Position numbers and translations under genes: made by a program. A stretch of DNA of 58,749 nucleotides from Paracoccaceae bacterium (GTDB taxonomy: Bacteria; Pseudomonadota; Alphaproteobacteria; Rhodobacterales; Rhodobacteraceae), in contig JAIOYF010000019.1 in the NCBI GenBank assembly GCA_021741245.1, forward strand, positions 1 through 58,749, read 5' to 3'. Shown here one piece after another: positions 1-58,749 of the stretch. Position 1 is the first letter of the stretch; every line of letters begins with the position of its first letter. Under the pieces are notes generated by a model. That model was not told the DNA's origin, ran no database searches, and saw only the letters and a program-made list of their open reading frames with translations.

Positions 1-139
1 ATAGGAGCCTTGATGCTCCAGCACCATCCGAACGGCGCGTGCCCGCATCTCAGGTGAATAACGGTTTGATGTCTTACTCTTTTCCATAGCCCTCATCCTT
101 AGTCAGGTTGAAGGTCTCCGGCAAACCCGGGGCGGTTCA
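1..139 (-). mobile_element. IS3-family insertion sequence, left copy (5' end only)
   Basis: This is the outer end of an IS3-family element, cut by the start of the window. The IS terminus is at base 139; read on the minus strand it begins TGAACCGCCCCGGGTTTGCC. The minus-strand ATG at 87-85 opens OrfA, of which 29 codons are present, reading MEKSKTSNRYSPEMRARAVR and on. The helix-turn-helix start with the SPEMRARAVRMVLEH pattern is characteristic of IS3-group OrfA proteins. The same sequence, inverted, forms bases 58611-58749. The two copies differ at three positions (28, 37 and 40 of this end), so they are separate genomic copies. The IS has inserted at the start of a tniQ gene. No target duplication can be checked because the other IS end lies outside the window. 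Confidence 0.85.
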
Positions 140-1969
140 CCCCACCCCTAAACCGCGGGAAACACTCTATTCCTACCTGTCGCGCCTCGCGGCTGTCTGG
201 CGCACGGATGCCCCTGAGCTCACCTATGACATGGGCGCACCGTTCAGGCGGCTATTGGAACAGGATATGGGGGCCCTCGAAACCGTTGCCGATTGGGCGA
301 AACTGTCCCCCGATGTTATGACTGAGCTGCTGTCCTGGACCGGGATCCGGGCAGGGAACGTCCGGATGGAATTCCGAGGCGAGCTCTATGTTTCTAGGGC
401 GATTCGCAACCCGATCATGCGCGGATGCCCCGTCTGCCTGCGCGAGGACGCCGCCGGTGCGACGGAGCCGGCCTATGCGGCGATGAGCATGCGGGGGGAC
501 TGGCAATTGCGCGAGGCGACGCTGTGCGTAGGCCACCGCCACCCTCTAGTTCCCCTTTGGCATGCTGCCGCGCCCCGGGACCGTTTCGATATCGGGGCTC
601 GGCTGCGCGAGGTTGAGGCGGATATTCTGTCCGGGGCGTTTGACCGGCCGCTGCGGGAGCCGTCGGGCTACGACCTATGGCTCGATCGGCGGCTTGACGA
701 TGGCACGGACGCCACATGGTTCTCGGATCACACCGTTTATGTGGTGACCACTCTGTGCCGCCTGCTTGGGCAGGCCCTGCTGAAAGAGGATACCCACAAG
801 GATGATCAGTTGTCCGACCGGGCGCATGCGGCCGGGTTCGATGTGGCGGTTGCCGGAGAGGCGGCGATCAGGGCCGCTCTCGAACATGTGGCGGCGCGGG
901 CAACCGGCGCTTTGGATGAAGCCGGTAAGGCCTTCGGGCCGCTCTATTCACGGCTCAACCGAGACTACCTGCATGATTCCGGGTTTGACCCGTTCCGGGA
1001 CATTTTGCGCGACTGCATCCTCGAGAACTGGCCCATAGGGTCCGGGGAAACGGTTCTGGGTCGGGTGGTTCCCGAGAGGCGCCTCCATTCCGTCACGACG
1101 GCGGCGACGGAGACCGGGATCGGCACGAAGGTTCTGGAGCATTTCCTTGTGGAGGCTGGGGCCATCGCGGCGGATGATCCGCGACCCCAGAGCCGGAGGT
1201 TGTTCGATGCTAAGGTCTATGCCGGGCTTATGGCGGAAATCCCCACCCTTGTCGGGCCGATCGCTATGCGGACAGCGATGGGGGCCACCCGAATGGAGCT
1301 TGCTGCCCTGGCCGAGGAGGGGCTGCTGATCCCCCGGACCCGGTTTGAGAAGGTGAAGAACCCGTGGCGGATCTCGGACGGGGTCGCCTTTGTGGCGGGG
1401 CTATCCGCCGGGGCCCGCTATGTCGCCGAGGACGACACGGAATGGCAGACCCTGCTTCTGGCCTGTCGGCGCAGCGGGGTCCCCTTGTCGGAGCTGATAC
1501 GGGCCATTGGCGACCAGCGCCTGACCGTCGGACAGCGCGCAGGTGTGACCGGCTTCCATGGGATCGTCGTACCGAAATCCGACGTGGACGTGCTGGCCGC
1601 TCCGGCCCGGGCTGTCCGGGATGAGTTTCTGGAGGAGGTTCCGGCAGCGTCACCGCGGCAGAATTCGGACGATCCGTCGGGCTACGCGATGGCGGGGTGT
1701 TTCAGGCCATGATCGAGGCCGGTCATGTGAGCGCCTATCGGATCATCAACCCCCGGACGGGTCGCCCGCAACACCGGATGACGCCGCAGGATATGGCGGC
1801 GTTTCACCTCCGCTTCATGACCCTGACGACCCTGTCCGCCGAGACGGGTCAGCATCGCAATACCCTGAAAGGCCTTCTCGCCGCCCGCAGGATTTCCCCG
1901 TTCGCGCCCGATGGGCAGGATTTCGGCGCGGTTTATCTGAGGGCGGATGTCGCGGCGATCATGCGATGA
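140..1969 (+). pseudogene. tniQ: TniQ-family transposition protein, 5' end lost to an IS and frameshifted near the 3' end
   Basis: TniQ proteins pick the target site for Tn7- and Tn5053-type transposons. The N-terminus is PTPKPRETLYSYLSRLA, the usual TniQ opening, but the IS ends at base 139 and the native start is gone. A zinc finger follows (CPVC near base 427, then CVGH). The first frame ends at 1712 in unrelated sequence. From about base 1655 the TniQ C-terminus continues in another frame as AAEFGRSVGLRDGGVFQAM, then MTLTTLSAETGQHRNTLKG, PFAPDGQDFGAVYLRADV and a stop at 1969. A small indel near 1645-1660 explains this; restored, the protein would be about 610 residues. The gene runs toward the transposon terminus at 2062 and tRNA-Arg. 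A sequencing error could mimic the frameshift, but the IS truncation is clear. Confidence 0.8.
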
Positions 1970-2020
1970 CCAGTCCTCAAGTCAAAGGTCAGCCTTGGAT
2001 GGCTTACCTCGATCAAATTC

Positions 2021-2062
2021 CCGACTTTTGCCGAAAAGTCGGCGTTTGCGCGCCTGACGACA
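2021..2062 (+). repeat. TniQ-element terminus with perfect hairpin, 14 bp from tRNA-Arg
   Basis: A 9-bp perfect inverted repeat (CCGACTTTT at 2021-2029, AAAAGTCGG at 2034-2042, loop GCCG) is followed by TTTGCG and by CGACA ending at 2062. Read inward from 2062 the terminus starts TGTCGTCAGGCGCGC, and TGTCG-type ends fit Tn5053/Tn7-like transposons. The hairpin begins 51 nt after the tniQ stop codon. The same hairpin at the same distance from a tniQ 3' end recurs at 55873-55902, which supports this being a conserved element end rather than a chance palindrome. The exact last base is inferred, because the far end and target duplication are outside the window. Confidence 0.6.
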
Positions 2063-2076
2063 AAATCAAAGGTGTT

Positions 2077-2153
2077 TGGCGGCCCCGGAAGGACTCGAAC
2101 CCTCGACCCGCTGCTTAGAAGGCAGCTGCTCTATCCAGCTGAGCTACGGAACC
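2077..2153 (-). tRNA. tRNA-Arg, anticodon UCU
   Basis: The minus strand folds as a 77-nt tRNA. The acceptor stem GGTTCCG pairs with CGGGGCC (two G-U pairs), followed by discriminator G and an encoded CCA. The D arm begins TAGCTCAGCTGG. The anticodon arm is GCTGC-CTTCTAA-GCAGC with anticodon TCT. The T arm contains GGTTCGAGTCC. It reads AGA/AGG arginine codons, which are rare in such a GC-rich genome. Its 3' end is 14 bp from the TniQ-element terminus, so it is the likely attachment site. The tRNA itself is complete and looks functional. Confidence 0.95.
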
Positions 2154-55652: not shown

Positions 55653-55821
55653 TTTTACGTGCCATTGGCTGAGGCCGTGTGGAAACTCTCGCGCCGAGAG
55701 CAGCTTGAACCTTCTTGCGGTTCATGCCGCCCCTTTCGTTCCTGACGGGCGCGATCTCGGGGCGATCTACGAATGGTCAGAAATCGAAAACAAGCTCTGG
55801 TGCCGCTGGCCGCGCAACTGA
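55653..55821 (+). pseudogene. tniQ: 3' fragment of a second tniQ gene (relic)
   Basis: Only the last 50 or so codons remain. From FYVPLAEAVWKLSRREQ the sequence shifts frame and continues as LNLLAVHAAPFVPDGRDLGA, then IYEWSEIENKL and a stop at 55819-55821. This matches the end of the left tniQ (LKGLLAARRISPFAPDGQDF, then GAVYLRADV). The stop codon is 51 nt before the hairpin at 55873, the same distance as in the left element. So this is a decayed relic of a related transposon in the same orientation, with nearly everything upstream deleted. Confidence 0.75.
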
Positions 55822-55872: not shown

Positions 55873-55902
55873 CCGACTTGTGTCGAAAAGTCGGTCTTTG
55901 CG
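55873..55902 (+). repeat. Relic TniQ-element terminus (matches 2021-2050)
   Basis: CCGACTTGT and AAAAGTCGG form the same hairpin as at 2021-2042 with one mismatch, followed by TTTGCG at 55897-55902. Similarity to the left terminus stops there, where the left copy goes on to CGACA. The break coincides with the TGTCG start of a different element at 55903, which suggests that element inserted into this relic end. Confidence 0.65.
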
Positions 55903-56101
55903 TGTCGAACTTCACTCTTCCTGTTCCGCCAGCGAAAATTTTTCCACAAGGATCTCTCAAGTCATTGAAAATGCTTAACCACATTCATGAAAAAAACAGC
56001 ATCTCTGTCCATTCGCAAGGTAAAATACGTCCACTGAATTTTTTCACGCGACCATGAAAAAAGCCGCCCGAAGGCGGCTTTTTTCCATCTTTTTCATGTC
56101 G
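55903..56101. other. Presumed terminus and end region of the right-hand TniB/TniQ element
   Basis: TGTCG at 55903-55907, then AACTTCACTC, is a plausible transposon end reading inward toward tniQ. The 200 bp up to the tniQ stop codon is AT-rich and holds repeated words such as CATGAAAAAA (twice) and AATTTTTYCAC-like stretches (twice), possibly transposase binding sites. I cannot define them firmly. There is no gene here apart from the tniQ terminator. Confidence 0.4.
56059..56086 (-). terminator. Rho-independent terminator of the right tniQ
   Basis: A perfect stem (AAAAGCCGCC with GGCGGCTTTT, loop CGAA) stands 15 bp beyond the tniQ stop codon on the minus strand, followed there by a T-run. 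It is symmetric and would also work on the plus strand, shielding the transposon from outside transcription. Confidence 0.85.
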
Positions 56102-57958
56102 TCAAGGCGAGGGCGAGGCGAGATCGTCGGGAAGGTCAGCCCTTCGGTAGATGCTCACCTTGATCAACTTGGGATCGACGACCGGCTTTACGTTCCGTTT
56201 ACGCAGGATCTGGTTCAGAGTGATGTGGTGGATCCCCGTATCTCGGGAGAGATGGAAGAGGGTCACGTAGGTTTTCCGAAATCGCTCGATCTCCGCCAAA
56301 TCAACCATAGATCTACTATGACGTCCGTCCTTCTTTCCGTTCAGGAGCCGGACGCCTTCCCATTCTTGCAGAAGTCTGGGCGCCACTGCCGGATTGATCC
56401 CGAGCAACTGCGAGGCGTCGAACGCCGTCAGCTTCTTTTCAGGCCTCCGCGGGGCATAGACGACATTCACCTCCTCCGGATCCAAGTGGATCGCACCGTA
56501 CCCCCGCTCCCCCGTTCGCCGGACAATCCGCTTGACCTCATGCGCCCGGATCATCCCGATGATGATGTCGCCTGTGACCCGCGCTTTCTGCGCGGTCGCC
56601 GGAATGTCGAACATGCCGCCAGGGATATCTTCGACATCAACTGCATGGCGGTGGAGGTCGGCGAGGAATGCGTCAACCACATCGGCAGCGACCCCGCGGG
56701 ACATGTTGCCGGTATCGAGGCCGGATGCGTTGATCCTCGGAAGAATCCCCATCTCGATCAGCATGATGACCTGGCCGCGCGTGGTGTTCATGTAAGATGG
56801 CAGAGCCGTCTGGGAGATCACGGTCTTGGCCATATCTGCCACGGATTTCGCCGCCTCGACGTCGAACGAACCCGGGATGATGACGCCCTTCCAATCCTTG
56901 ATGACTCCCTGAGAAGCCATCAGATTCCGAAGCGTCCTGGGGTCCAGGCCACTTTCCTTGGCAATTGCGTTGATCGTATAGTTTTCCGTCTTCGGAGCGG
57001 CATCTCCCATGAACTTCTTGCCGTAATTCGTGCGCATGGATTCGACAATGAAGCGCCGCACGACTTCCTTGATCGGTCCCGCTTCCTTGCTATTCTTCGA
57101 TAATTCCGTCCAACGATATAGACCCCCGAAAGCGCGCTGTGGGCCATAGGGCGTTGTGAGCCCGGTCTGCACGGATTTCTTATCGTGAATTTCCGAAAGC
57201 GCCTGCCGGATGCCCTCCTCTCCCCGCGACACATACGGATAGCCTGCGCGCGCCGCGATCTCCCAGTCCTCCGCCGAGAGTTTCTTCAGGTTCACCTTGA
57301 GAGGAAAAGCCAGGACGAGCCCCAGCATTTCCGTCGCCCTGACCGCTTGGTCGATATCCTGCCCATCGAGCCATGCAGGTCCCGGCTGGCCCTCAAGGCG
57401 CCGCTCCACGTAATCCTGCAATTCAGAAGGCGCACGCGAGACGCTGGCATCCACCAGACGCAGCAGGTCGACGCCGCGCTCCGGAACGATCAGGCTCATC
57501 TGCTTTGCAACGTCGTCCCACCTGATCCTCTTGCGATCCATCAAAGGAATCTGATGGCGTCCACAGGTCCTGACTGCGCGAACCCACCAGTTCAGACGCC
57601 CGAGGCGGAAACGTCTCGGATCTCCAGCCTGATCATCTTCCGCGAGGCACATGGGGCAGAAGCCAATCGAGTTCCCCCGGAAAAGCTCTACGGAGAAGGC
57701 GTTTCCGCGCAGTTCGTACCGGCGCTGGTCCACCTGACGGGGCGTGTTGCGCCGCAGTTCGACGGCATCGACACCGGTCATCTCCGCGAGCCGGTCGACG
57801 GCCGCATCGGCTCCGGTAATCAGGTTGTTCAGCTTGACGCCGATGTCGTTGAGGAACGGGACCAGCGACCCGCCCGTATGCAGGCCGGCGAGGCGCGTCG
57901 CCCAGGACAGGACGCTTTCGTCCGATCGGATCGGAAGGATCGGTTTCAGATGATTCAT
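56102..57958 (-). CDS. tniQ: TniQ-family target-selection protein, intact
   Basis: A 618-residue TniQ. The N-terminus (LPIRSDESVLSWATRLAGLH) is typical, and the zinc finger uses Cys101, Cys104, Cys132 and His135 (CPMC...CGRH). A long C-terminal part contains several helix-turn-helix segments, the last being TLFHLSRDTGIHHITLNQIL. TniQ bridges the target DNA and the AAA+ regulator. The start ATG overlaps the tniB stop codon (ATGA), so they are translated together. It is longer than Tn5053 TniQ (about 400 residues) and closer to TnsD-like targeting proteins in size, which suggests site-specific targeting. It differs clearly from the left tniQ. Confidence 0.88.
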   Translation of the reverse strand: MNHLKPILPIRSDESVLSWATRLAGLHTGGSLVPFLNDIGVKLNNLITGADAAVDRLAEMTGVDAVELRRNTPRQVDQRRYELRGNAFSVELFRGNSIGFCPMCLAEDDQAGDPRRFRLGRLNWWVRAVRTCGRHQIPLMDRKRIRWDDVAKQMSLIVPERGVDLLRLVDASVSRAPSELQDYVERRLEGQPGPAWLDGQDIDQAVRATEMLGLVLAFPLKVNLKKLSAEDWEIAARAGYPYVSRGEEGIRQALSEIHDKKSVQTGLTTPYGPQRAFGGLYRWTELSKNSKEAGPIKEVVRRFIVESMRTNYGKKFMGDAAPKTENYTINAIAKESGLDPRTLRNLMASQGVIKDWKGVIIPGSFDVEAAKSVADMAKTVISQTALPSYMNTTRGQVIMLIEMGILPRINASGLDTGNMSRGVAADVVDAFLADLHRHAVDVEDIPGGMFDIPATAQKARVTGDIIIGMIRAHEVKRIVRRTGERGYGAIHLDPEEVNVVYAPRRPEKKLTAFDASQLLGINPAVAPRLLQEWEGVRLLNGKKDGRHSRSMVDLAEIERFRKTYVTLFHLSRDTGIHHITLNQILRKRNVKPVVDPKLIKVSIYRRADLPDDLASPSP

Positions 57959-58610
57959 TTTGCCTTCCTCCATTTGGCAGCGTGCCCCTCGTCCCAGATG
58001 TCGATTTTCGACCACTCGGTGGCGATGAACGGGTTTTTCGAGCGAGGCTGACGCGATACGGTCGCCCAGGACTCGGCGAAATGCAGGGGCTCCAGCCGGC
58101 TGTCGCCAACCCGCAAAGCCAATTCGATGGCGTTCACGATGTTCTCCACGCAGAGGCCGAACCGCATCCTGCTGGCATGGATCAGCCGCGGAACGATGTC
58201 GCCTGTCGGTGGCTCGAGGTCGGCCCGGGCGCAGTAGTTCTGCAGCACCTTGCGCAGGTTCTGCCCGTCAGCGGCCAGGGTCACAGGCGGCAGATCGAGT
58301 TTCGCATAGCGCCGCTGGGTCTGCCCTTCGATAGCTACCAGTTCCTGAAGGATCGGGATGCCCATCAGGATGACGATCACCGGCTGGTCGGCGGCCAGAA
58401 GCGACTTGAACGCCGAGAAGATGTCCATCACCTCGCGCATGGAGCCCGAAGAGTTCAGGTCATGCGCCTCGTCAATGACGAGGCAGACGTAGCCGATGGC
58501 GCCCAGTCGATGGCGAACGAGGTTCCAGATGCTCCAGCGCTCCCGACGCTCCGAGATCTCGGGATAACCCGTGGCCCGCAGGATCTCGCAGCCGAAGCTC
58601 TTCAGGGTGG
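57955..58610 (-). CDS. tniB: TniB/TnsC-type AAA+ ATPase, N-terminus lost to an IS
   Basis: The C-terminal 218 residues or so of the transposition regulator ATPase. Walker B is visible (VCLVIDEAHDL) and sensor 1 follows (VIVILMGIPILQEL), then an arginine-rich stretch (EGQTQRRYAKLDLP). The Walker A part should lie upstream but the IS at 58611 cuts it off, so the protein is probably dead. In intact elements it couples the transposase to TniQ-marked targets. No transposase gene is in the window. The stop codon overlaps the tniQ start by 4 bp. Confidence 0.85.
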
Positions 58611-58749
58611 TGAACCGCCCCGGGTTTGCCGGAGACCTTCAACCTGACTAAGGATGAGGGCTATGGAAAAGAGTAAGACATCAAACCGTTATTCACCTGA
58701 GATGCGGGCGCGTGCCGTTCGCATGGTGCTGGAGCATCAAGGCTCCTAT
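58611..58749 (+). mobile_element. IS3-family insertion sequence, right copy (5' end only)
   Basis: The IS begins at 58611 with TGAACCGCCCCGGGTTTGCC. OrfA starts with ATG at 58663, and 29 codons are present before the window ends. It is the inverted counterpart of bases 1-139 with three differences, and it interrupts tniB. Two copies of this IS are therefore in or beside TniQ-type transposons, pointing outward at both ends. IS3-type elements fuse OrfA and OrfB by frameshifting; that part is outside the window. Confidence 0.85.

Follow-up and report, generated by a model that had tools for sequence, protein, structure and literature searches.

The stretch of DNA analyzed here (the window) is the entire contig C21 of 58,749 bases, one of 27 contigs in its genome, and both of its ends are formed by the same insertion sequence (IS), which we take to be of the IS3 type. 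Its features are listed in Table 1. Next to the left IS, a tniQ gene reads toward a hairpin and a TGTCG-type terminus that stops 14 bp from the encoded CCA of an intact tRNA-Arg(UCU) gene, as the initial annotation had described; 51 bases separate the tniQ stop from the start of the hairpin. The tRNA was called both by ARAGORN and by Rfam (61.8 bits). The encoded protein carries the TniQ domain PF06527 (61 bits against a cut-off of 27), which places it among the TniQ/TnsD-family selectors of Tn7-like transposons, and its first part is 69% identical to the TniQ of genome G076, its nearest relative. The gene is broken, a correction to the initial annotation: its start was lost to the IS and one frameshift lies between about 1602 and 1655. 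NCBIfam gave no match for this TniQ, a PDB sequence search gave none either, and a structure model (mean pLDDT 50.7) was too poor for use.

Table 1. Positions of the features discussed, in window coordinates
Feature	Position	Strand	Description
IS end	1..139	-	Took away the first ~8 codons of tniQ
tniQ, first part	140..1601	+	Target selector of TnsD size, with the TniQ domain at its N-terminus and the larger part of the C-terminal extension
tniQ, remainder in another frame	1652..1969	+	82% identity to the C-terminus of G076 TniQ
Transposon right end (very probable)	2019..2062	-	Terminus TGTCGTCAGG from 2062, then hairpin CCGACTTTT/AAAAGTCGG at 2021-2042
Spacer	2063..2076	.	14 bp between terminus and CCA
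AAATC within spacer	2063-2067		Would be one copy of a 5-bp duplication; partner copy not found
tRNA-Arg(UCU)	2077..2153	-	Intact, CCA encoded, 3′ end toward the transposon; attachment gene
Possible scrap of another tniQ C-terminus	55732..55770	+	PFVPDGRDLGAIY, 10/13 identical to G231 TniQ, E 0.005, no better than a chance match elsewhere in the window (E 0.004); recorded because it adjoins the second right end
Second right end, same type	55873..55914	-	Scores 44.9 with the 44-base matrix; outermost bases altered; no tRNA adjoining
Same IS at other contig end	58609-58749		

The window copy is a relic and is dead. TnsB and TnsC genes are absent from the window, the left part of the element having been lost, and a search of the genome found neither a left end nor a partner duplication. 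The sole further match, on contig C23, was considered as the left end and rejected, as it has 3 mismatches and reversed-pattern controls gave 5 matches. By eye, no contig was seen to continue across the IS at the left end of the window contig. We note that the window also holds a second tniQ of another family (56102-58640), with a tniB interrupted by the same IS; the end of contig C9 (L020) resembles the rest of that tniB, as judged by eye from its ATPase motif.

The right end was scored with a 44-base weight matrix built from the right ends of four relatives (two of them identical, the window excluded) and scanned over about 3.4 million positions on both strands of overlapping loci. The window end reached 36.6, compared with 13.3 for the best match outside recognised element ends, and is thus no chance match. 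The outer 25 bases alone scored 16.2, which was not outstanding among other matches of 15-17, and it is therefore the hairpin that carries the evidence. A hairpin pattern drawn from the two copies on the contig found no further match in the 4.2-Mb genome; a generic genome repeat, with only these two copies on one contig, was ruled out. A second pattern, modeled on G331, matched 2 of 18 relatives. Besides G331 it picked out G133, an independent case; in each the match adjoins a tniQ homologue and a tRNA-Arg gene. The pattern missed the variant in G231. The window terminus matches right ends in Pseudorhodobacter turbinis, G133, and G231. In the comparison with empty sites called for by the initial annotation, 2021-2062 was absent, by eye, from the 180 bases behind the tRNA in five genomes of the same genus whose tRNA-Arg(UCU) has no recognisable element end (G002, G008, G009, G011, and G014), so this sequence is not ordinary flank.

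Ends of two types occur among the relatives. GCATAAG-like ends, in several cases repeated about 20 bp inward, are found in most members; the second type, TGTCG with a hairpin, is found in the window, P. turbinis, G231, G331 (contig C103), and G133, and the end of G136, which lies at nrdJ, is related to it. Since most relatives are of the GCATAAG type, our first guess was that the TGTCG end is not a transposon end, but this was dropped because P. turbinis, G133, and G231 gave bounded TGTCG-type elements. The P. turbinis element (7795-14442 of L228) has ACAAC on both sides and the 18.6-kb G133 element has CTATT on both sides. In G231 the two ends are on separate contigs, the left one next to tnsC and tnsB, and the GCCAA at the right end predicted the TTGGC that was then found at the left end. 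All three TGTCG-type elements with both ends found therefore carry the perfect 5-bp duplication expected in the initial annotation, and their left ends match their right ends, with the hairpin missing from the left ends of this type. In G006, of the GCATAAG type, both ends are present and inverted, but no duplication is seen in the flanks, nor does the left flank match empty sites. That 2019-2062 is instead the native terminator of the tRNA, with tniQ an unrelated gene nearby by chance, is hardly credible and was rejected as contradicted by the bounded elements: the 72 bases fold as RNA at -21.2 kcal/mol, as do 14 of 200 shuffles equally (z -1.6), but the sequence is missing behind the same tRNA in the five same-genus genomes, has only its two copies on the window contig, is found beside tniQ in relatives, and lies inside duplication-bounded elements in P. 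turbinis, G133, and G231.

We then asked where homologues of this TniQ lie, using 295 genomes of the same family (E <= 1e-40). At least 26 homologue places were found in 21 of these genomes, and among the matches listed ARAGORN called a tRNA within 1.5 kb at 18 of the 26 loci: Arg-UCU at 9 (window included), Arg-CCU at 5, Met at 2, and Gln and Gly at 1 each. The tRNA-Arg(UCU) is also present in G006, which is Pseudotabrizicola algicola ETT8, of the same genus as the window genome. Two of the eight tRNA-less loci are halves of one G133 gene, whose end adjoins the 3′ portion of a tRNA-Arg(CCU) cut by another island. Counted as genes, a tRNA 3′ end lies behind tniQ in 19 of 25 (window and the partial tRNA of G133 included; among the matches listed). 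Three of the remaining six (G078, G136, and G081) are found behind nrdJ, at its 3′ end; this gene encodes a B12-dependent ribonucleotide reductase (76-80% identity to an annotated Cereibacter protein). G106 and G127 have neither tRNA nor nrdJ beside tniQ, and in G076 another gene follows tniQ, then the contig ends. The suggestion that this TniQ recognizes tRNA-Arg thus stands for tRNA genes as the target of the clade, but not for Arg(UCU) alone, given the Arg-CCU, Met, Gln, and Gly cases. A class-wide search with the TniQ of G300 matched 1 of 385 genomes, the window's own, and the clade therefore looks restricted to the family.

Plasmid and chromid records added six homologue places in five records. 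Whole tRNAs were present at two of them, in Tritonibacter mobilis A3R06 (Arg-CCU) and P. turbinis (Arg-UCU); by eye, 3′ parts of tRNAs were seen in T. mobilis F1926 and, tentatively, in Paracoccus alcaliphilus. The two places in Paracoccus ferrooxidans have no tRNA, one being internal and the other abutting guaD. In that species, plasmid pFER4 (L226 20202-22007) carries the second tniQ, whose element end abuts the guaD 3′ end, and guaD is possibly a third kind of homing site. A second homing site is seen at nrdJ, behind which the neighboring TniQ proteins lie in all three genomes concerned (L133, L134, and L135), and Cereibacter sphaeroides (L230) has relic tnsB/tnsC near nrdJ. We also observed tRNA-Arg(CCU) genes split on the 5′ side by another island, in G133 (L129 about 2920-2990) and T. 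mobilis F1926 (L225 8984-9032).

The distance from the CCA to the terminus was 10-19 bp, with a median of 14 in 19 measured cases, and is 14 in the window. This agrees with the fixed distance that the initial annotation had proposed for homologues, and insertion at a fixed distance behind a conserved gene is a mark of Tn7-like transposons. The count is restricted to loci where the CCA is encoded and the terminus is clear, the outermost base of GCATAAG-type ends being set by eye; G331 C82 (no encoded CCA), G089 (end unclear), and G133, T. mobilis F1926, and P. alcaliphilus (cut tRNAs) were left out. The spacer sequence after the CCA is not conserved, and the sequence in common is that of the tRNA T-arm and CCA, a similarity that tRNA genes have anyway. 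First-type ends were seen by eye at the same tRNA site in G001 and G004, and a doubtful end in G005; with ends at the same tRNA in several genomes, the site is therefore a repeated target. Back-to-back ends of two elements were observed in G076 (L220 about 1570) and G133 (L128 3277-3289), a probable sign that elements inserted in tandem at a single attachment site; those in G133 are apparently of two different types, the outer one being a weak match.

In a tree of the TniQ proteins (8 of 30 inner branches open), the 24 tRNA-side proteins fall into one clade of 26 with support 100/99, which also contains G106 and G076, and the three nrdJ-side proteins lie just outside. Attachment genes including nrdJ required 9 changes on this tree, as low as in none of 500 label shuffles; within the tRNA clade there were 8 changes, where shuffles averaged 9.7 and 51 of 500 went as low. 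The choice of gene thus follows TniQ for tRNA versus nrdJ, and weakly between tRNAs. Sister TniQs have different targets in Gln (G145)/Gly (G022) and Met (G221)/Arg-UCU (G064), the G022 and G064 entries being fragments. This weak tracking within the clade would also be expected if tRNA genes were general integration hotspots at which transposons gather without TniQ choosing, and other islands do cut tRNA genes here (G133 and T. mobilis F1926). Such a hotspot is nevertheless very unlikely to account for the data: a tRNA was found at 0 of 17 control loci with more distant TniQ proteins (counting two that overlap; their best E against the window protein is 3.7e-56, and only the second tniQ of the window was placed in the tree), side, orientation, and distance are constant, the neighboring TniQ proteins adjoin nrdJ in all 3 genomes concerned, and attachment genes including nrdJ follow the tree.

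Transposition genes were examined in the relatives. G133 and G231 have tnsC and tnsB inside the left end, and P. turbinis has a 71-residue tnsC scrap there. The TnsB-type transposase and TnsC of G133 (the latter with PF05621, a TniB-like ATPase) lie in one bounded element, and the tnsB/tnsC contig of G231 is tied to its element by the left end and the duplication. G300, of the first type, carries both parts on a single contig: tniQ at 258 kb, next to tRNA-Arg(CCU), and, at 295-299 kb, tnsA-tnsB-tnsC directed away from that tRNA; the left end was not seen because the contig ends. Between its two ends, G006 retains tnsA and a portion of tnsB. Such wide spacing as in G300 is not constant: G221 has a partial tnsA about 0.9 kb from its tniQ, and the tnsABC genes of P. 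ferrooxidans are divergent to the tniQ that does not adjoin guaD. In T. mobilis F1926, tnsABC is close to a different end with the same orientation and may be part of a separate element. The TnsA domain PF08722 was detected weakly in G006 (E 0.011, below the cut-off), the G106 protein gave only an unrelated sub-threshold match, and the G133 protein gave none. By eye, the TnsA-like protein of G106 (L094 14713-15441) seems to be without what we presume to be the usual catalytic lysine; if true, this loss would favor replicative transposition. Phage-defense-like genes were observed inside or upstream of elements, namely a SMODS nucleotidyltransferase, presumably of the CBASS type (L092 8506-9552), and an Mrr plus STAND ATPase protein (L128 15391-18090).

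Based on these data, the feature beside the tRNA is very probably the right end of a Tn7-like transposon, now decayed, whose TniQ homes insertion behind tRNA genes. At the level of sequence, this is indicated by position, orientation, distance, and ends, and in the relatives by duplications and gene order. We propose that TniQ, which is comparable to TnsD in size (most intact relatives have about 600-630 residues), would itself bind the 3′ part of the tRNA gene and bring TnsC and the TnsA/TnsB transposase. Insertion would then occur 10-19 bp beyond the CCA, with the right end facing the tRNA and 5 bp of the target duplicated, leaving tniQ at the tRNA end and reading toward it, and tnsA-tnsB-tnsC opposite, reading toward the left end. 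Because the spacer after the CCA is not conserved, we infer that TniQ perhaps makes its contact at the conserved T-arm and acceptor region.

Tn7 encodes TnsABCDE, homes behind glmS by means of TnsD, and generates a 5-bp target duplication. The elements described here resemble it in having TnsA/B/C with a TnsD/TniQ selector, a 5-bp duplication, and a fixed distance behind a conserved gene, but differ in that the target is the 3′ end of a tRNA and that tniQ occupies the attachment-side end and is directed outward, tnsABC being directed toward the other end. Tn5053/Tn402 (TniABQR) has TGTC-type ends, and such ends, the TniQ domain, and the TniB-like ATPase (PF05621, G133 TnsC) are likenesses to the present elements, which unlike Tn5053 lie at tRNA genes and have a TnsA-like gene in relatives. 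According to the accessible portions of the literature, Tn5053 targets plasmid resolution sites (PMC11406308/PMC10293859). Cyanobacterial type I-B2 and I-D CAST have a tRNA-targeting TnsD, as far as the available text of two reports goes (PMC11406308, PMC10293859), and the likeness to these systems lies in homing by a TnsD/TniQ protein to sites behind tRNA genes. CyCAST is described in the same partial texts as inserting around 30-33 nt behind the tRNA (PMC11406308/PMC10293859), in contrast to 10-19 bp from the CCA here; unlike the cyanobacterial systems, the present elements occur in Rhodobacteraceae and most often at tRNA-Arg.

The two end types go with different transposases. At least 10 genomes had a strong match to the first-type TnsB (E < 1e-60), and 7 of 10 such genomes (G300, G106, G089, G166, G127, G331, and G076) also have a homologous tniQ, compared with 21 of 295 overall (among the matches listed); in G166 the first-type TnsB adjoins a different TniQ. 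The second-type TnsB proteins of G133 and G231 are 48% identical, against 33-35% for the next family matches (among the matches listed), and between the two TnsB lineages identity is about 25% over roughly 270 residues. Yet these two lineages, with different ends, have one TniQ clade in common, and the selector has therefore probably been exchanged between transposons. End types (counted without G089 and G078) changed at least 5 times on the TniQ tree, a value equaled or undercut by 196 of 500 label shuffles, and are therefore spread as if unrelated to that tree. Back-to-back or relic ends at the same sites (G076, G133, G001, and G004) would also fit end exchange or recombination at a common site in place of tniQ transfer between lineages, an explanation that we regard as possible but unlikely, since the left and right ends match and are duplication-bounded in P. 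turbinis, G133, and G231 and each element therefore moved as a unit. We lean, with reservation, toward a portable selector, in which one TniQ clade reads a common feature of the tRNA 3′ half, switches isoacceptors easily, and has been handed on repeatedly among two or more transposase lineages that differ in their ends.

That some Tn7-like elements home to tRNA genes, as stated in the initial annotation, is already in print: in the available text of Benler et al., Tn7-like elements appear to insert downstream of tRNAs (PMC8649781), and together with the CAST TnsD reports (PMC11406308, PMC10293859), equally available in part, this makes tRNA homing of Tn7-like elements known. The supposed novelty for Rhodobacterales fares better, but does not extend to tRNA homing in general: a literature search, with most subscription papers outside its scope, found no paper on a tRNA-homing TniQ in Rhodobacterales, and within the same scope found no description of this Rhodobacteraceae clade, of its tRNA-Arg preference, of an outward-reading tniQ at the tRNA end, or of one selector clade common to two transposase lineages. 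In the accessible part of Faure et al., dual TniQ-TnsD loci are reported to be few and their proteins distantly related, a pattern expected from exchange (PMC10293859). The present findings bear on whether tniQ genes move between transposons, and the closely related selectors at different tRNAs are natural pairs for finding the TniQ residues that read DNA.
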